DNA of 42,697 bases from contig CALVHH010000022.1 in assembly GCA_944327465.1 (NCBI GenBank), forward strand, positions 1-42,697, in the 5' to 3' direction. Within the stretch, counting starts at the first letter, position 1. Each line of letters opens with the position of its first letter. Position numbers and translations under genes: made by a program. Below the pieces are notes generated by a model. The model saw nothing but the letters and a program-made list of their open reading frames with translations. It searched no databases and had not been told where the DNA came from. Of this stretch, positions 2,760 to 37,156 are shown in pieces. The DNA comes from an uncultured Clostridia bacterium (GTDB lineage Bacteria > Bacillota > Clostridia > Christensenellales > Borkfalkiaceae).

Positions 2760-3428
2760 CTATCTCTTTAATTTATTGAGGTTTATTTTTTGTTCAGACG
2801 TAAGTCTGTAACTTTCCTTAGCTTTTTGTATTGCTTTGTTGTGCGTCTTTGCCGTAAGAGCGTTGCTTTTCAAAAACCGCACGCCCTCATCGTAAAATTT
2901 TACCAACACTTCGGCAATGAGCCATGCCACACCCATATGCACATAGTACATAGAAGTATCGGCTTTTTGGCAACACGAAAATATAATATCCAGATACTTT
3001 TGCTCCATATAATACGAGAGCAGCGTAGTTATTGCAAAGCGCTGCGAAAATTCACGCGGAGCGGCAAGATATTTTTGTATATATGGTAAAAACTCGTCGC
3101 GATGCAAAGAAATACATTTTGGCGAAAAGCCGTCGCAAGTCGCCCAATTATCGATGAGCCCGACACATATGTCGACATAGCCGATGAACCTGTCATACGG
3201 AAGCTGCGCCACAGCCGAAAGTTTGACGAACGTAACTTCATAAAACTCGTCGGGAAAGGACATGAGCTCGTCCTCTCTTCCCTTAAAAAGTTTTGCCGCC
3301 TTTCTCAGTTTAGGTATCGTAACGCCCAGCACGCTTATCTCATCGTTTTTTAAAAGCTTTGTATGGAACCGACGATATTTTTCATCCGCGGCGTCATTGA
3401 GGTATGCCAAAAACTGTCCGTAATTCAT
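2760..3428 (-). CDS. AlkD-like DNA alkylation repair glycosylase
   Basis: This 222-residue protein belongs to the HEAT-like-repeat DNA alkylation repair family, whose members remove N3- and N7-alkylated purines without flipping the base. The hallmark segment LIDNWATCDGF places W95 and D99 at positions matching the conserved Trp and catalytic Asp of AlkD. The rest is all-helical with many basic residues. The start is an ATG with AAGGAGG about 12 bases upstream, inside the preceding glycosylase gene, which it overlaps by 35 bases. The pairing with a deaminated-base glycosylase suggests a small base-excision-repair unit. AlkC/AlkD subtype cannot be settled by eye. Confidence 0.85.
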   Translation of the reverse strand: MNYGQFLAYLNDAADEKYRRFHTKLLKNDEISVLGVTIPKLRKAAKLFKGREDELMSFPDEFYEVTFVKLSAVAQLPYDRFIGYVDICVGLIDNWATCDGFSPKCISLHRDEFLPYIQKYLAAPREFSQRFAITTLLSYYMEQKYLDIIFSCCQKADTSMYYVHMGVAWLIAEVLVKFYDEGVRFLKSNALTAKTHNKAIQKAKESYRLTSEQKINLNKLKR

Positions 3429-3882
3429 TGAGCCAGGCGTCCTCCTTTTTTGAAGTATTAGCAGGACTTGTTGAAGGCAGCTTTATGTACGGCACCGGCA
3501 AATTTGCATAATGCTTTAAAAAAATTTTATACGCAGTGCCGCCGTTTAAAATTATTCTTTTTATACTGCAGGCATCCAACACCAAACCAAGATCTGCCAC
3601 CTGATAATTTTTTATGCTGCTGTCCGCACTGCCGCGTATCTCGCAGCATGTGACAATATCCCACAGCGCTATTTTATTGCCGCACAGAAAATCCTTCTTT
3701 TCGGACACCGTCTGCGGAACGGGTCTGCCGAACGCCGACGCAAGCAGACGCCAAAAGTCGTTCCTGGGATTTCCGTAATAAAAGCTTTGCTGCCTGCTCA
3801 TTACGGAGGGAAAACTGCCGAGAATGAGAACTTCGCTGTCTCTGTTGAAAAACGGCTCGAAGCCTTTCATCCTTTCGCTCAC
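3394..3882 (-). CDS. DNA-deoxyinosine glycosylase (uracil-DNA glycosylase superfamily)
   Basis: This 162-residue protein matches the hypoxanthine-DNA glycosylase branch (family 6) of the uracil-DNA glycosylase superfamily, which excises deaminated adenine. Motif 1 is LILGSFPSVMSRQQSFYYG followed by NPRNDFW (about residues 19-44), and the C-terminal motif is LPSTSPANT near residues 134-142. It overlaps the M16 peptidase stop by 4 bases (ATGA) and itself overlaps the AlkD-like gene by 35 bases, so all three are translationally coupled. A mismatch-specific uracil glycosylase is the alternative, but the NPRNDFW segment favours the hypoxanthine type. Confidence 0.87.
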   Translation of the reverse strand: MSERMKGFEPFFNRDSEVLILGSFPSVMSRQQSFYYGNPRNDFWRLLASAFGRPVPQTVSEKKDFLCGNKIALWDIVTCCEIRGSADSSIKNYQVADLGLVLDACSIKRIILNGGTAYKIFLKHYANLPVPYIKLPSTSPANTSKKEDAWLNELRTVFGIPQ

Positions 3883-5114
3883 AGATGCCTGTCCACCTTG
3901 CCGACAACGGCAGTAGCCCTGTATCTTTCATCAAAATTATATTCGATAGCCTGCAAAACGTCCTGATACGTAACCGAAGTTATCTTCTTTACCCTGTCTT
4001 CGAAATTGTAGATGTTTCCGCTGTAAATAAGCTCCTTACCATACAGCAGCATCTGCGAGCTGGTATTTTCCTGGGCAAAAATCTGCGACGCCAAGAGCTG
4101 TTCTTTGCCGCGTTTAAATTCGTATTCGGTTATATTTTTGCGCCTGATATCTTCAATACACGAATAGATTGCTTCAACGGAATGCTCATAATTATCTGCA
4201 TTCACACCGGCGTATATCACGAGCGAACCCGTATCCTTATAGGAAGTGAGATAGGAATAGACGGTATAGGCAAGCCCGCGCTTTTCCCTGACTTCCTGGA
4301 AGAGCCTTGAAGACATACTGCCGCCGAGAACGGCGTTGACAATCATGGTAGCGTCGGCCAAAGGCTCATATCTCTTCATTGAAGGATAAGCTATGCCTAC
4401 ATGTACCTGCTCTATGTCCTTCTTTTTAGACAAATTTTTACTCTGCAGATTGACTTCGACGGCGCGGTACGAGCCGCTGCCTGCGGGCAAATCCGAAAAA
4501 TACTTTTCAACAAGCTCCTGCGCCTGTTCAACCGAAATATTCCCCGCCATAGATATGACGATGTTGTCGGTGGTGTATCTGTCCGCCATGTAGGCGAGAA
4601 TATTCTGCTTTTTAAAGGAGCGCACGTTTTTGCGGGGTCCCAAAATATTTCTGCCGTAATTCCTGTCCCCGAAAAACGCCTTCGACAGTAAATCGAGGCA
4701 GAGGTCATCGGGGGTATCCTCGTTCATGGCTATCTCTTCGAGCACTACTCCCTTTTCTCTTTTCATCTCCTCGGCGGGAAAGGTCGAGTTAAGGAAGATA
4801 TCGGCAAGTATTTCAAAAGCTTCGGCGGCGTGGTCTGACGTGGACTTCGCGTAGTAACACGTCATGTCCTTGCCGGTAAAAGCATTGACCTGCGCGCCGA
4901 TGGCGTCCATTCCGTCAGAGATATCAAACGCCGTGCGCTTTTTTGTCCCTTTGAACATCATGTGCTCAATAAAGTGCGAGATGCCGTCCTCTTCGTCGCT
5001 TTCAACACAAGCGCCCGTACCCACGATAATGCCCATTGTTACCGATAAAAGTCCGCTCATCTGCTTTACGATGAGCCTTATTCCGTTATCTAACTGTTTA
5101 AAGTGTACCATCAT
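3879..5114 (-). CDS. M16 family zinc metallopeptidase (MlpA/YmxG-like)
   Basis: This 411-residue M16B peptidase carries the inverted zinc motif HFIEH (H47, E50, H51), with the distal zinc-ligand glutamate expected in VVLEEIAMNED near residue 127. No signal peptide is seen, so it is probably cytoplasmic. Two consecutive ATG codons open the reading frame; the first overlaps the upstream stop (ATGA), while the second, 3 bases on, is better spaced from the AGGAG. In Bacillus subtilis the homologue mlpA follows ylxY, a NodB-fold gene, and the same order is kept here. Substrate is unknown. Confidence 0.9.
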   Translation of the reverse strand: MMVHFKQLDNGIRLIVKQMSGLLSVTMGIIVGTGACVESDEEDGISHFIEHMMFKGTKKRTAFDISDGMDAIGAQVNAFTGKDMTCYYAKSTSDHAAEAFEILADIFLNSTFPAEEMKREKGVVLEEIAMNEDTPDDLCLDLLSKAFFGDRNYGRNILGPRKNVRSFKKQNILAYMADRYTTDNIVISMAGNISVEQAQELVEKYFSDLPAGSGSYRAVEVNLQSKNLSKKKDIEQVHVGIAYPSMKRYEPLADATMIVNAVLGGSMSSRLFQEVREKRGLAYTVYSYLTSYKDTGSLVIYAGVNADNYEHSVEAIYSCIEDIRRKNITEYEFKRGKEQLLASQIFAQENTSSQMLLYGKELIYSGNIYNFEDRVKKITSVTYQDVLQAIEYNFDERYRATAVVGKVDRHL

Positions 5115-5815
5115 TCTCCTAAGTTCTTCGAAACCGTAACAAACGAAAGTCCGCTCGAAGATATGTAAGATATTATATCAGGCAGCGCAGCTACCGTTAC
5201 GTCCATAGGATGCATCAGAATAAATTCGCCGTTTACAATATTTTGCGTGGCGCGCTCGCAAATCAGCTTGGTATCGCTGTCGCGCCAGTCTATCGTATCC
5301 CGCGACCACATTATAGCCTTTACGCCCAACATTGAGCATGCCGAAAGCGTGTTTTCGTTGAATGCTCCCGAAGGCGGAGCAAACAGCGAGATATCGCTGC
5401 CGAGAATGGCATTCAACAATTTTATGCTCGGCAATATTTCGTCATAGTTCTGGCGATAAGTCATGGCGGAGTGGTCTTTATGGAAATACCCGTGCGAACC
5501 GATTTCGTGTCCGTTTTTTGCTATCTCGCGCACGCAGTCGACGTTGTCGTCCGCCCAGCACCCGCCGAGGAAAAAAGTTGCGCTGACATCAAATTCGTTC
5601 AAGATATCGAGTATCTTATAGACGTTCGAAGTATTCTGATAGACATTGAACATCAGCGAAACGCCGCAAGCTGTCTCTTTTGCAGAGTAATATGGCTGAT
5701 CATGTTCACCCGAAACCTGCACGGCGTTGCCGTCTGCAAAGCCCACAACGCAGGTAACGGCAATTATTGCGCACAGAACAGCATTGACTATGAATGGCGT
5801 AAGTTTGTTTTTCAA
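5111..5815 (-). CDS. NodB-fold polysaccharide deacetylase-like protein with altered motif 1
   Basis: A 234-residue protein with an N-terminal hydrophobic segment (about residues 7-27), so it is secreted or membrane-anchored. The NodB fold is seen from residue 50 on. Motif 2, SHGYFHKDH (107-115), keeps the two metal-binding histidines and PPSGAFN resembles motif 3. Motif 1, normally TFDD, reads MFNV (55-58), so both the catalytic-base Asp and the metal Asp are replaced. This may be a subfamily trait rather than decay, because the rest of the domain is intact. The start is TTG preceded by AGGGG. Position before the M16 gene parallels ylxY-mlpA of Bacillus. A sporulation or cell-wall role is inferred only. 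Confidence 0.8.
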   Translation of the reverse strand: MKNKLTPFIVNAVLCAIIAVTCVVGFADGNAVQVSGEHDQPYYSAKETACGVSLMFNVYQNTSNVYKILDILNEFDVSATFFLGGCWADDNVDCVREIAKNGHEIGSHGYFHKDHSAMTYRQNYDEILPSIKLLNAILGSDISLFAPPSGAFNENTLSACSMLGVKAIMWSRDTIDWRDSDTKLICERATQNIVNGEFILMHPMDVTVAALPDIISYISSSGLSFVTVSKNLGE

Positions 5816-31234: not shown

Positions 31235-32362
31235 TCACGGCAAGCGGGCGTACCGCTCCTTCACCTCACTGAGATTGTCTCCGCCCAACCGGGAGAGAAT
31301 TACTTCGGTAAGCGCGGTCGCAACCACGCATTCCGCAATTATTTCGCATGCACATATCGCCGCAACGTCGCTGCGTTCTCCGGCAGCTTTTGCAGGCAGC
31401 TTACTGTCGAAATCGATAGTATCCAAACCACGCATCAGCGTAGGAATGGGCTTCATTGCCGCGCGCAGAACGATATCTTCGCCATTGGACATTCCGCCTT
31501 CGATGCCGCCGGCATTATTCGTACTGCGCATGATTTTCCCGTCATTCAAGTAAATCGCGTCATGCACGGCTGAGCCGCGATTGTATGCAACACCAAACCC
31601 CATGCCGACTTCGACGCCCTTTATTGCCTGAACGCTCATCAATGCGGCACAGAGCAACGAATCGAGCTTTGTAGAGTACTGCATGCAACTGCCGAATCCG
31701 CTCTTTAAACCTTTGACGCGCACTTCGACGACCCCGCCGGCAGTATCTCCTTCGGTCTTGAGCTCGTCAATCAGCGCCATAGCGCGGCGCTGAGCGTCGT
31801 CATCGAGCATAAACAGCGGCCGGCGTTTGGCTTGGGCGAGCTCTTCAAACAAATAGTCGCCCCTGTCTTCGATGCCGCAGAGACATTTTACATACCCGGA
31901 AACGTGCACCCCGAGCTCATTCAAAAGGCACATGCATATCGCACCGGTCGCGACCCTTGCCGCAGTCTCCCTAGCGCTTGCGCGCTCAAGGATATTTCTT
32001 GCGTCACTCTGGTCGTATTTCAGCATGCCCGTAAGGTCGGCATGACCGGGACGAACCCTTGTAAGCCGCCTTAAAGACGTATCGGCGCCTTCGGGCGCCA
32101 TGCACGCCTGCCAGTTGACATAGTCGCGGTTTACAATACTAAACGCCAGCGGACTGCCGAGCGTCAGCCTGTTGCGCACGCCGCTGAGTATTTCTATCTC
32201 GTCCTTTTCAATCTTCTGTCTGCCGCCGCGACCGTAGCCGCTCTGCCGAAGGGCAAGGTATTCGTTGATAAAATTTATATCGATATTGACATTTGCAGGC
32301 AAACCTTCAATTATTCCGACAATTGCCTTGCCGTGAGATTCGCCGGCGCTCGTAAATTTCAT
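31235..32362 (-). CDS. aroC: Chorismate synthase
   Basis: Last step of the shikimate pathway, an FMN-dependent elimination forming chorismate. The 375-residue protein shows GESHGKAIVGIIEGLP (near residues 7-22), RQSGYGRGGRQ, RPGHADLTGMLKYDQ(S/D)DARN-type signature and GGIEGGMSNGEDI. ATG overlaps the upstream stop (ATGA) and has GGAGG in front. aroA and a DAHP synthase are not in the window. Confidence 0.95.
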   Translation of the reverse strand: MKFTSAGESHGKAIVGIIEGLPANVNIDINFINEYLALRQSGYGRGGRQKIEKDEIEILSGVRNRLTLGSPLAFSIVNRDYVNWQACMAPEGADTSLRRLTRVRPGHADLTGMLKYDQSDARNILERASARETAARVATGAICMCLLNELGVHVSGYVKCLCGIEDRGDYLFEELAQAKRRPLFMLDDDAQRRAMALIDELKTEGDTAGGVVEVRVKGLKSGFGSCMQYSTKLDSLLCAALMSVQAIKGVEVGMGFGVAYNRGSAVHDAIYLNDGKIMRSTNNAGGIEGGMSNGEDIVLRAAMKPIPTLMRGLDTIDFDSKLPAKAAGERSDVAAICACEIIAECVVATALTEVILSRLGGDNLSEVKERYARLP

Positions 32363-33396
32363 TTGTTGTTTCCTCCGCCCAAGGTGTATCCGTCCTTATC
32401 GACAATAATGGTTATGTCGCCGTGCTTGCTCGTCAAAATAGGGAAATTGACCACGCTGCTTATATCCGCAAGGGCCTGCGCCGACGGATAACCCGAATAG
32501 TTATCGCCGACCGAGATAACCGCAAGCGAAGGCGAAAGGGTCTGATACCATTTAGGCGACGAACATTCCGCCCTGCCGTGTCCGGGCACGGACACTATGT
32601 CGCAATCGGACAGGTCAATCGGATAGCCGTGAATGGGCGCGTACTCATCTCCCGCCGCCGTCATAATATCATAACTGTCCACAATACTCTCGAGCGCAGC
32701 CTTGCCTGCTGAAGAAGTAAACGCGAACGAAGTGCCGCAGTATTCCAGCCAGATGACCGCAGAAGCATTGAGCATATTTTCTTCGGTGGCAGACTTATCG
32801 AGCGCCGCATAGTAACCTTTGGGGTCATCGGGCGACGAAGGCGAAAGGAAAGTGAAGAAATAATCCTCGCCGACAGCCCCCGCGCCGTATTCGCAGTAGC
32901 TTATCTCAGCTTCGCTTGCCGCGGCGGCATCGACAAATTCGGCATACTCTTCATTGATATAGATGTTTGAAACCGCAGGCATGAATATATGCTTTATCTC
33001 TTTTTTAAAAGAACTGATGACCTCATCCAGTCCGCCGCAGTATTCTCCGAGCACCGAAGTGCATACGAGATAATCTATAGTATCGACTCCGCGCTCGTTG
33101 AGCACGGTCAATATAGCTAAATTGTTCGCATATGAACCGTCGCCGCCATCGATAAGCATGACTTTTCCGTCAGGAAACTCACAAAGAGTGCTGTCGCCGT
33201 ACCCTACATCTATAAACGTAACGCGGAGAGTATCCTCCTCGCGTTCATCCTTTCCCACAAAGTACGCCGAAAGATATTTTATGGGAATAAATATATTGAT
33301 AACTATCAGCACAATGACGAGCAGCCCCACTACGGCTGCCGTTATTATTGCGGCAACGCGCCCCCTGGAAAACTCCATCTTCTTTTTATCGGTCAA
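32359..33396 (-). CDS. Membrane-anchored ComEC-like beta-lactamase-fold protein with lost metal site
   Basis: A 345-residue protein with one membrane helix (about residues 13-36) and an outside domain resembling the C-terminal ComEC/Rec2 domain: VTFIDVGYGDST (59-70), LIDGG (81-85) and a closing LAVISVGDNYSGYPS. In active relatives the SHxDxDH metal motif would follow; here residues 112-121 read CTSVLGEYCG, so His and Asp ligands are replaced. The TGD position reads TSS, and HHGS reads GHGR. Metal-dependent hydrolysis is therefore doubtful. The start is TTG with GGGAG upstream. It is the first gene of the shikimate operon; its role there is unknown. Confidence 0.75.
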   Translation of the reverse strand: MTDKKKMEFSRGRVAAIITAAVVGLLVIVLIVINIFIPIKYLSAYFVGKDEREEDTLRVTFIDVGYGDSTLCEFPDGKVMLIDGGDGSYANNLAILTVLNERGVDTIDYLVCTSVLGEYCGGLDEVISSFKKEIKHIFMPAVSNIYINEEYAEFVDAAAASEAEISYCEYGAGAVGEDYFFTFLSPSSPDDPKGYYAALDKSATEENMLNASAVIWLEYCGTSFAFTSSAGKAALESIVDSYDIMTAAGDEYAPIHGYPIDLSDCDIVSVPGHGRAECSSPKWYQTLSPSLAVISVGDNYSGYPSAQALADISSVVNFPILTSKHGDITIIVDKDGYTLGGGNNK

Positions 33397-33501: not shown

Positions 33502-33533
33502 CATAAAAGCCGCGCCGAGGCGCGGCTTTTATG
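33502..33533 (-). terminator. Terminator of the pyruvate formate-lyase genes
   Basis: CATAAAAGCCGCGC (33,502-33,515) pairs with 33,520-33,533 in a very stable stem that ends in TTTTATG on the minus strand. It separates the pfl unit from the shikimate promoter. Confidence 0.85.
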
Positions 33534-33553: not shown

Positions 33554-33784
33554 TCAGAACGACTGATGTATGGTTCTTGAAATGACGTCGTCCTGCTGTT
33601 CCTTTGTGAGCTTATTGAAGTTTACGGCATAGCCCGAAACCCTTATTGTCAGCTGAGGATATTTTTCGGGGTGAGCCTGCGCATCGAGCAGGGTATCCCT
33701 GTCGAATACGTTTACATTGAGATGATGTCCGCCATCTGCAACATAGGCATCGAGCATATTGACCAAATTATCTACCCTTGACAT
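33554..33784 (-). CDS. Stand-alone glycyl-radical domain of pyruvate formate-lyase (GrcA-like)
   Basis: A 76-residue protein equal to the C-terminal piece of pyruvate formate-lyase. It holds the radical motif RVSGYAV with the radical-bearing Gly51, preceded by GGHHLNVNV and PEKYPQLTI and followed by [11 protein letters not shown]. The N terminus ([11 protein letters not shown]) begins where the body protein stops, with no missing segment. GAGGT lies 8 bases before the ATG, and the frame differs from that of the body gene. E. coli GrcA is a similar spare part, but there the main enzyme keeps its own glycine; here this is the only visible source. It must be activated by PflA to generate the radical. 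Confidence 0.9.
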
Positions 33785-33837
33785 ACATAGTACCTCGCAA
33801 ATATTTTATATTTTGAAATTAAGGTTGTAAAACTGTT

Positions 33838-35868
33838 TTAATCGTCCTTTCCGAGCGAAGCAGGCGTTACGGAGAAGGTATTGGAAATGCCGTCACGCGA
33901 ATACTCATAGGGAAGTTTCGCCACAGATTCCAGCGAAGCCAGCGCACCGCTTGTATCTCTGCCGTGCATGGGATTTGCGCCGGGCGCAAGCGGCGTGCCC
34001 TCCCTTCTTCCATCAGGCGTATTGCCCGTCTTTTTGCCGTAGACGACATTGGAAGTTATGGTGAGGATAGACATTGTGGGCACACTTTCGCGATAGGTGT
34101 AATGACTCTTGATTTTGTTCATAAAGGTCTTTACAAGCCATACGGCTATATCATCCACCCTGTCGTCGTTATTGCCGTACTTAGGATAGTCGCCTTCTAT
34201 CCTGTAATCGACTGCCAATCCCTCTTCATTGCGGACGGGATAGACTTTTGCATACTTTATCGCCGAAAGCGAATCGACCGCACAGGAGAGCCCGGCGATG
34301 CCCGTAGCAAAAAATCTGCGCACGTCCGTATCATGCAGTGCCATTTCGAGCGCTTCATAGCTGTATTTATCGTGCATGTAATGAATGAGGTTGAGCGTAT
34401 TTACATACAGACCGGCAAGCCAGTCCATCATCTGTTCATACTTGGCTTTTACTTCGGCATAGTCCAGCGGACCGTCGCCCTCTATCGGCGCATACATCGG
34501 CGAGACCTGAAGCGCTTTGCCCGTCTTTTTATCCTTGCAGAGCTCGTCCTTGCCGCCATTGATTGCATAGAGCAGACACTTGGCAAGATTTGCCCTTGCG
34601 CCGAAAAACTGCATATCCTTGCCTACGCGCATGCAGCTTACGCAGCATGCAATGCAGTAATCGTCGCCCATCTCGGGACGCATGAGGTCGTCGCTTTCGT
34701 ACTGTATAGCCGAAGTCTCAATAGAAGTTTTTGCACAGAACTTTTTGAATCCCGCAGGAAGGTTTTTAGACCACAAAACCGTAAGATTGGGTTCGGGCGC
34801 GGGACCGAGATTTTTGAGCGTATGAAGGATGCGGAACGAAGAGCGCGTTACGAGCGTTCTTCCGTCGACACCCATGCCGCCTATCGACTCGGTTACCCAA
34901 GTGGGGTCGCCCGAAAACAGCTCGTTATACTCCTTTATCCTCATGAACTTGACGATGCGAAGCTTCATTACGAACTGGTCTATGAGTTCCTGAGCCTGCA
35001 TTTCGGTTATCGTGCCGCGTTTAATATCACGCTCGATATAGATATCAAGGAATGTGGAATTGCGACCTATAGACATTGCCGCACCGTTCTGGTCCTTTAC
35101 GGCGCCGAGATAACCGAAATACAGCCACTGGATGGCTTCCTGCGCATTTTCGGCGGGGCGAGAGATATCCATGCCGTAGGACGCCGCCATCTGCTTGAGG
35201 GCGTTGAGCGCCTTTATCTGCTCCGACAATTCCTCTCTGTCGCGAATCTTATCGGGAGTCATCACTCCGTCCATATTCAGCTTATCTTTCTGCTTCTGTG
35301 CAATGAGATAGTCTATGCCGTACAGCGCCACGCGGCGGTAGTCCCCGACTATCCTTCCCCTGCCGTAAGTATCGGGCAGACCAGTAAGTATGTGAGCTGT
35401 ACGGGCGCGCCGCATTTCGGGCGTATAGGCATCGTACACTCCGTCGTTATGTGTTTTGCGATATTTCGTAAATATCTCTTTGACGAGAGGATCAATTTCG
35501 TAGCCGTACATGCCGAGCGCTTCCTCCGCCATTCTTATTCCGCCGAAGGGCTGGAGTGCGCGCTTGAAAGGCTCGTCAGTCTGCAGACCGACTATCTTTT
35601 CAAGCTCTTTATCTATATAACCGCCTTTATGACTGGTGAGCGTAGATACGATCGACGTATCGGCCTTCAGGACTCCGCCGGCAGCCCTCTCCTTTTCGGA
35701 AAGTTCAAGTATCTCCTGCCAGAGCTTTTTGGTAGCCTCTGTCGGTCCCTCCAAAAAGCTGTCGTCGCCGTCATACGGCGTATAATTGCGCTGAATGAAA
35801 TCGCGCACGTTGACTTCATCATCGCTCCATTTTCCAGGAATAAATCCCTCCCATGCCTTGTAAGTCAT
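33838..35868 (-). CDS. pflB: Pyruvate formate-lyase body lacking the glycyl-radical segment
   Basis: Converts pyruvate and CoA to acetyl-CoA and formate without oxygen. This 676-residue protein aligns with PflB from its N terminus (MTYKAWEGF) to the [15 protein letters not shown] segment, then stops. The adjacent active-site cysteines are C408 and C409 in IACCVS, followed by [11 protein letters not shown]. About 75 residues including the radical glycine are absent and are encoded by the next gene. GAGGT precedes the ATG, and a TTGACA promoter lies upstream. The body alone should be inactive. Other glycyl-radical enzymes (choline lyase, glycerol dehydratase) are excluded by the close PflB match. 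Confidence 0.93.
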
Positions 35869-35971: not shown

Positions 35972-36256
35972 TTACAGCCGATGCGTCTGCCCGTATTCTT
36001 CAAGCTTTGCCTGCACCCAAAGAGAGAGTATCTCCTCGGGCTGATAGCCGAAGCATCTCGCCACTACTTTTTCGCCGTCGGCTATAATTATCGCAGGAAT
36101 GCACTCCACGCCGTATTTTTGAACGGCTTCGGGATGCGATTCAATATCTATCCTCTCGACGGAAAGCCCGTTCTGCCTAGCCGCCGCATTGACGGCGGGT
36201 ATTACCGCATGACAGCCGGCGCAGCTGTCGCCGCTTATTTCAATGAGTTTTATCAT
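35972..36256 (-). CDS. Thioredoxin-like protein with CAGC motif
   Basis: A 94-residue thioredoxin-fold protein. The redox motif is C12-A-G-C15 at the end of the first strand (LIEISGDSCAGC), and the cis-proline loop is ECIPAII. Length and motif are closer to small glutaredoxin-like/thioredoxin-like proteins than to classical WCGPC thioredoxin. It overlaps pflA by 4 bases (ATGA) and precedes the split pfl genes. A role in keeping the PFL cysteines or activase reduced is inferred from position only. Confidence 0.82.
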   Translation of the reverse strand: MIKLIEISGDSCAGCHAVIPAVNAAARQNGLSVERIDIESHPEAVQKYGVECIPAIIIADGEKVVARCFGYQPEEILSLWVQAKLEEYGQTHRL

Positions 36257-36972
36257 AATATTTTTAAAATTTCCTTTGCGTTTGCAATACGTTCCGCAGA
36301 AAGCGGCTGCGTATCTTTCAGCGGATAAGCGATACCGAGTTTATCGTACTTTACAACGCCCATCGTATGATAGGGAAGAACTTCTATTTTTTTAACATTT
36401 CCCAGCAGACAGATAAAATCCCTCAGCCTGCAAAGATAATCATCATTATCCGTAATTCCCGGAACAAGAACGTGCCTTATCCAGACGGGCTTGCCAAGCT
36501 CTGCAAGATAACGGGCAAAGGCGAGAATATTTTTATTGGAATGACCGGTGAGACGCCTGTGCTCCGCATCATCGATATGTTTTATGTCCAGAAGCACGAG
36601 TTCTGTCACTTTGAGCAGCCCGTCATACTTTTTCGGATTGCCGGCATCGAACATCACTCCCGACGTATCGAGTGCAGTATGCACGCCGCGTTCTTTAAGA
36701 AGCGAAAACAAACTGCTCACGAACTCCGCCTGCAGCATGGGCTCCCCGCCCGAAACAGTCACTCCGCCACCGCCCGTAAAATAGCTTTTATATTTCAATG
36801 CTCGTTCGGCGACCTGTTCGGCGGTGTACTCGCTGCCGGCATTCGAAGACCAGGTATCAGGATTATGACAGTACAGACAACGCATCGGACAGCCCTGCAT
36901 GAACACGACAAAACGTATTCCGGGCCCGTCCACCGTGCCAAACGATTCAAAGGAATGTATCCTGCCAAGCAT
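36253..36972 (-). CDS. pflA: Pyruvate formate-lyase activating enzyme
   Basis: A radical-SAM enzyme that abstracts hydrogen from the PFL glycine to create the glycyl radical. The 239-residue protein has the [4Fe-4S] motif CPMRCLYC (C28, C32, C35), the FGTVDGPGIRFVVFMQGC lead-in typical of PflA, and VSGGEPMLQ for SAM binding. The ATG at 36,972 has GGGGAGG 7 bases upstream. An in-frame start 39 bases further up lies in the T tail of the leader terminator and is rejected. Expression is probably controlled by the upstream ZTP-type riboswitch. Confidence 0.94.
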   Translation of the reverse strand: MLGRIHSFESFGTVDGPGIRFVVFMQGCPMRCLYCHNPDTWSSNAGSEYTAEQVAERALKYKSYFTGGGGVTVSGGEPMLQAEFVSSLFSLLKERGVHTALDTSGVMFDAGNPKKYDGLLKVTELVLLDIKHIDDAEHRRLTGHSNKNILAFARYLAELGKPVWIRHVLVPGITDNDDYLCRLRDFICLLGNVKKIEVLPYHTMGVVKYDKLGIAYPLKDTQPLSAERIANAKEILKIL

Positions 36973-37005
36973 GGACCGACCTCCCCGCCGCATCAAAAAT
37001 AAAAA

Positions 37006-37037
37006 GGGCAAAATTTACCTTGAAGATAAATCTGCCC
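37006..37037 (-). terminator. Leader terminator of pflA, riboswitch expression platform
   Basis: On the minus strand GGGCAGATTTATC (37,025-37,037) pairs with the arm at 37,006-37,019, followed by a T-rich tail (36,995-37,005). The 5' arm reuses the GGGCA of the aptamer core, so aptamer folding and terminator folding exclude each other. Confidence 0.8.
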
Positions 37038-37117: not shown

Positions 37118-37129
37118 ATGTATATACAT
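37118..37129. promoter_or_regulatory. Perfect 12-base palindrome over the pflA start site
   Basis: ATGTATATACAT is its own reverse complement and covers the predicted transcription start near 37,121 and part of the -10 box. It may be an operator, although short TA-rich palindromes also arise by chance. Confidence 0.4.
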
Positions 37130-37156
37130 TGTAACACCCAAAACAATTCTTGTCAA
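37128..37156 (-). promoter_or_regulatory. Promoter of pflA leader
   Basis: TTGACA (37,151-37,156), 17-base spacer, TACAAT (37,128-37,133). It gives a leader of about 149 bases before the pflA ATG. Confidence 0.83.

Follow-up and report, generated by a model that had tools for sequence, protein, structure and literature searches.

Two adjacent genes in the 42,697 nt stretch of DNA analysed here (the window, a contig of an uncultured Clostridia bacterium) together encode the parts of a pyruvate formate-lyase (PFL), and we put the probability that they specify one enzyme, an obligate two-subunit PFL, at about 85%. PFL is a main enzyme of fermentation in gut anaerobes, vulnerable to oxygen through its radical domain. 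At the sequence level the two halves are together complete, the catalytic elements are conserved, the pair is the sole PFL in the assembly, and it is kept in relatives. Judged from these comparisons, a two-subunit PFL appears to be real and widespread, while the re-fusion, the linked thioredoxin-like gene and the viral carrier genes described below appear to be new among what was searched. The features of the region are:

32359–33396, minus strand: neighbouring gene without assignment, 345 aa, with an N-terminal membrane segment and, by eye, the look of a metallo-hydrolase; no Pfam match at 0.001
33503–33532, no strand: GC-rich inverted repeat past the small gene, terminator-like by eye, absent from the terminator-scan list
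33554–33784, minus strand: radical-carrier gene (GrcA3-like), 76 aa, radical glycine G51 in RVSGYAV
33785–33837, minus strand: spacer of 53 nt, with GAGGT 7 nt 5' of the ATG of the small gene
33831–33803, minus strand: promoter-like match in the spacer, weak (10/12 consensus positions)
33838–35868, minus strand: PFL body gene, 676 aa, ending SLGKDD, without radical domain, catalytic pair C408-C409
35972–36256, minus strand: thioredoxin-like gene between pflA and the body, 94 aa, CAGC, C-terminal GYQPEEIL (PF13192, E 9.1e-10)
36253–37011, minus strand: pflA, PFL-activating radical SAM enzyme (TIGR02493, 320.4 bits, cut-off 231.75), 5' of the body and co-directional with the pair
37128–37156, minus strand: promoter-like site 5' of pflA (TTGACA, 17, TACAAT; 11/12), a consensus match only

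A sequence-only reading of the window had proposed the body and the small protein, and both ORFs were recovered where it had placed them. The body matches the PFL model TIGR01255 with 1094.7 bits (cut-off 994.2) over positions 1–663 of 744, and the small protein covers positions 666–743, so nothing is missing between the halves. When aligned with E. coli PFL (PDB 1h16), the body reaches as far as residue 678; the small protein, from its own residue 5 on, matches residues 683–758. The sole difference at the junction is a 5-residue loop of the E. coli enzyme that is also missing from most intact clostridial PFL termini compared (L016 is an exception). The earlier claim that joining the two proteins leaves no gap against full-length PflB was thus borne out. 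The further claim that the body stops just before the glycyl-radical domain stands in that the cut lies in the linker ahead of the radical domain proper, but not for the Pfam model PF01228 (Gly_radical), which begins about 50 residues ahead of that domain and straddles the cut, with positions 2–48, its first half, remaining in the body and positions 53–106 in the small protein. Likewise, the GAGGT motif and the frame change attributed to the spacer are present, the small gene being in a different reading frame from the body, but the stop codon also assigned to the spacer is the TAA at 33838–33840, which lies inside the body ORF.

In intact PFL (PflB, TIGR01255; PDB 1h16 and 2pfl) the radical domain is part of the chain, whereas here the radical glycine is found on a separate protein of 76 aa, and a thioredoxin-like gene is additionally present between pflA and the body. 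The glycine G51 is invariant across 23 aligned small proteins, as are C408 and C409 in 25 aligned split bodies; judging from the conserved motif, we take these cysteines to be the equivalents of E. coli C418 and C419. The latter numbering of the catalytic cysteines of E. coli PFL is that used in PMC12338860. An AlphaFold model of the body alone (mean pLDDT 78.5, with residues 603–643 and 666–676 below 50) confirms the PFL fold only. A consensus scan found 13 promoter-like matches in the scanned region, an AT-rich stretch, against 5.7 expected; the match in the spacer makes transcription of the small gene on its own conceivable, though such matches are common here.

The assembly to which the window belongs (1.44 Mb in 23 contigs, 92% complete) contains a single PFL-like match, and neither another PFL nor a GrcA was found in it, although one may have been missed at this completeness. 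The Gly_radical model matched both halves of the pair and one further gene, which reads as an anaerobic ribonucleotide reductase with an NrdG-like ORF next to it. The sequence-only reading had named a full-length pflB elsewhere in the genome as a finding that would speak against it, and none was present in the 92% recovered. Among the 37 genomes of the genus, including our own (drafts of 67–98% completeness, searched with the Gly_radical model, which also matches other glycyl radical enzymes), 21 have the split form, 8 an intact PFL and 8 a reductase-type match only. No genus genome has both forms (0/21 split genomes with an intact PFL, 0/8 intact genomes with a separate small gene). Pyruvate:ferredoxin oxidoreductase (PFOR) is present in our genome, which thus has another way to acetyl-CoA besides PFL; with 8/37 genus genomes showing no PFL, the enzyme is evidently dispensable there. 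In other families of the order, one of 24 genomes (G045) is split.

In a scan of GTDB genomes, 73 of the best 80 of 575 loci showed the adjacent truncated body and short radical protein which the earlier reading had suggested looking for in relatives, the remainder being two intact PFLs and five small genes without adjacent body; the titles among these 80 include Clostridia, Lachnospiraceae, Ruminococcus, Erysipelotrichaceae, Acholeplasmatales, Anaeroplasmataceae, Olsenella and Collinsella. Among 199 genomes drawn evenly from the phylum, at least 58 (59 rows, E ≤2.1e-49) have an unbroken PFL junction and our own genome is the only split one among the matches listed, hence the split is confined to certain lineages within the phylum. 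A set of 95 split loci, reduced to 93 distinct ones by removal of the same-contig copies L124 and L126, shows that the arrangement is not due to chance. Their spacers range from 1 to 446 nt with a median of 46 (8 below 10 nt and 24 above 100 nt; start codons were chosen by script, and the small gene of L105 was begun too far in), the three frames are evenly used (29/35/29), and a ribosome-site-like motif precedes the small gene in 91/93.

These variable spacers, the use of all frames and the motif indicate two genes and not a frameshift, and read-through or frameshift was rejected, as was an assembly artefact, the same pair occurring in many independent assemblies. In a few relatives both parts share a reading frame and are separated by just one stop codon (G023, and likewise G279 and G280), as expected if read-through, frameshift or assembly error masked one continuous protein, yet in view of the preceding observations we give this explanation almost no credence. 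A pseudogene was similarly rejected: 66 pairwise comparisons among 12 near loci gave pN/pS values of 0.086 (small gene) and 0.128 (body), so both genes are under purifying selection in these 12 loci, and the decay in relatives that the sequence-only reading had listed as counter-evidence was not seen.

The likeness to GrcA (YfiD) and to the phage Y06I spare-part proteins lies in the separate small radical-domain protein; these back up an intact PFL, whereas none is present in our 92% complete assembly. With the GrcA/YfiD model TIGR04365 the small protein scores 98.5 bits, below the cut-off of 170, and it is without the N-terminal extension, while with the NCBIfam model NF038360 (GrcA3) it scores 157.5 bits over 74/78 model positions, 0.5 under the cut-off of 158. 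GrcA3 is named an autonomous cofactor by NCBI, not an obligate subunit, and this name would fit a GrcA-type spare accompanying a body that uses another radical domain or is a decaying remnant. So would the second small gene away from the body that at least six genomes contain (L040, L058, L077, L086, L098 and genome G072 of L108), which means that the small protein is not a single fixed partner there; five of these genomes were picked because a lone small gene had been seen in them, so that no rate can be derived, and all six have a split-type pair or body at another site. We nevertheless regard the spare-part explanation as improbable, since neither our assembly nor the remaining 20 split genus genomes yielded another PFL radical domain, selection on the body is strong, and no body of the split clade was seen with a radical domain, bar the intact ones of the genus. 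At the sequence level the obligate-subunit reading therefore holds, with a single PFL in the assembly and the pair kept in relatives.

Of 26 genomes reached via related split loci, a PFL match passes the cut-off in 25, and only G061 (locus L082) contains an intact PFL besides the split one, the other 25/26 being without; the searches for second small genes gave several further full-length matches to the Gly_radical model, which extends to other glycyl radical enzymes. In G281 the body is a fragment only.

PMC8683613 describes the rescue of E. coli PFL from oxygen damage by a small protein; repair of further enzymes of the family by other GrcA-like proteins is suggested as a possibility by the authors. 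F. nucleatum is without such a homolog according to a 2025 review (PMC12288474). No description of a split PFL was found in the literature as covered by titles and abstract starts, with most subscription papers falling outside. Two PDB entries for formate acetyltransferase, 38la and 38lb, are bodies without radical domain from lineages other than that of the window, and look like natural split bodies: the last residue of 38la aligns with that of the window body, which likewise ends at the LGK linker, 38la is the top scorer with an Erysipelotrichaceae split body (1228.9 bits), as 38lb is with an Olsenella split body including its tail (1325.4 bits). When the query is an intact clostridial sequence, E. 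coli PFL (1h16) outscores both. PDB chain searches found no chain for the small partner. Given 38la and 38lb, an enzyme of this kind is probably under study by others, and together with the GrcA3 model they mean that the split kind is partly catalogued already.

The evolution of the split form was examined using an 88-row tree and a quicker 132-row tree. The former comprised 64 split rows, all with complete bodies and after manual removal of 16 near copies, together with 7 intact rows from the genus and 17 hand-chosen canonical rows; for the latter, 141 rows above 440 aa were kept and nine copies then dropped. In the 88-row tree one branch (SH-aLRT 100) unites the split rows with the intact ones from the genus, which are nested several starred forks deep inside it, and the 132-row tree agrees. 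Constraining the split rows to a clade of their own costs 101.6 log-likelihood units (p-AU 0.0023, a value weakened because the constrained group was named after the 132-row tree had been viewed). The 132-row tree also places Mycoplasmatota and Actinomycetota rows inside the split branch, which suggests transfer of the split form between phyla, and groups the window-genus rows with a record named Candidatus Coproplasma, a matter of placement only. The simplest history would be one fission, a wide spread and re-fusion in the genus of the window, whose intact PFLs look re-fused; the split form would then be one clade reaching three phyla, which we count as new here.

Alternatively, the intact PFLs of the genus could be ancestral, with many fissions at the same linker. 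By eye, the linker of most of them has the canonical length, at a position with Lys in nearly all split rows their small domain carries the Arg that most canonical rows share, and the forks near the intact rows in the 88-row tree are weakly supported. However, forbidding re-fusion requires 13 separate fissions (six when forks under 80 are collapsed), the split-only clade is rejected, and the radical domains of these PFLs follow the split type elsewhere (YV, DAQ), so that we consider this history unlikely, if a serious contender to a single split followed by re-fusion. Lys versus Arg at this TKEQQ site was tried as a marker of the split form and dropped, the intact E. coli PFL having Lys.

The 93 split loci fall into 73 with short bodies ending near LGKDD and 20 with longer-tailed bodies, the tails often, though not always, containing cysteines. 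Eight of the tailed bodies (L082, L085, L101, L104, L105, L106, L109 and L114) have a post-LGK extension with a recurring F.G(D/E) and cysteines near the end, and in L104 the small ORF (3983–4396) extends to 138 aa and stops just short of pflA. The pflA gene is downstream in 16/20 tailed and 6/6 canonical loci and upstream in the short class, where, among the 64 loci with at least 1 kb of upstream sequence, 56 have pflA followed by the thioredoxin-like gene, six have pflA alone and two have neither. No thioredoxin-like gene was found in the re-fused (5/5), tailed (16/16) and canonical (4/4) loci with enough sequence. Its invariant residues in 20 aligned rows are G9, C12, C15, P54, G70, Q72, P73, E75 and I76. 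In a profile search of 32 genomes, those of the genus being drafts, the four with the gene next to a split PFL gave matches at E ≤7.7e-33, while the other 28, among them eight genus genomes with a re-fused PFL and eight with none, gave hits no better than 4e-13 in 10 genomes, by reading ordinary thioredoxins, and none in 18. Three of the six pflA-bearing split loci without the thioredoxin-like gene (L042, L044 and L092) group with the re-fused rows in the 132-row tree; L052 and L125, both with the gene, are in the same grouping, for which the 88-row tree gives no resolution. The link between the thioredoxin-like gene and the split is suggestive, the re-fused rows being few lineages, and an association with the short split class would be new among what was searched.

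For the obligate two-subunit enzyme, we propose that the body supplies the barrel and the catalytic cysteine pair, that the 76-aa protein would dock where the C-terminal domain lies in intact PFL, and that PflA would install the glycyl radical on it, the complex then presumably converting pyruvate and CoA to formate and acetyl-CoA; 2-ketobutyrate lyase activity may be an alternative. Oxygen cuts the PFL chain at the radical glycine, and for this reason we infer that a separate carrier could allow cheap replacement, with the cell discarding 76 residues and keeping the 676-residue body. With the carrier off, the catalytic cysteines would be exposed while the body awaits a new one, and the thioredoxin-like protein, a concrete candidate partner, might re-reduce them. 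The combined scenario, in which an oxygen-cut carrier is exchangeable, a split-only thioredoxin resets the cysteines, and a single split was followed by inter-phylum spread, re-fusion in the genus with loss of the thioredoxin and carriage of the small gene by phages of such hosts, is possible but on balance doubtful. The split and seemingly re-fused sister species form a natural experiment on why the parts are separate, and their survival in oxygen is directly comparable. Annotation pipelines may also mistake such bodies for truncated PFLs.

Finally, a scan of IMG/VR gave 16 records with such a small gene. A PFL body is missing from 13 of these records, among them L195 and L196, which encode a longer, GrcA-type protein. 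Small carrier genes without a body in the IMG/VR record include:

L184, 3001–3222: small carrier gene
L185, L186 and L187, 3001–3225: small carrier genes
L189 and L194, 3001–3216: small carrier genes

In L184 and L186 the neighbours of the small gene include an anaerobic ribonucleotide reductase and an activase-like gene, and in L186 and L187 a T4-type RNA ligase is nearby. Terminase models match 3/16 and tail-sheath models 1/16 of the records, so that IMG/VR and a few neighbouring genes are the basis for calling them viral; some records are short, and some of the 16 may be bacterial fragments. Viral small genes without a body would be new here among what was searched. In L183 and L193 (both 3001–5258) the order is reversed, with the small gene before the body, and the PFL match contains two in-frame TGA codons, which may represent recoding or decay. 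Searching a phage collection with the small protein gave 1538 matching records, most of them from phages of enterobacteria.
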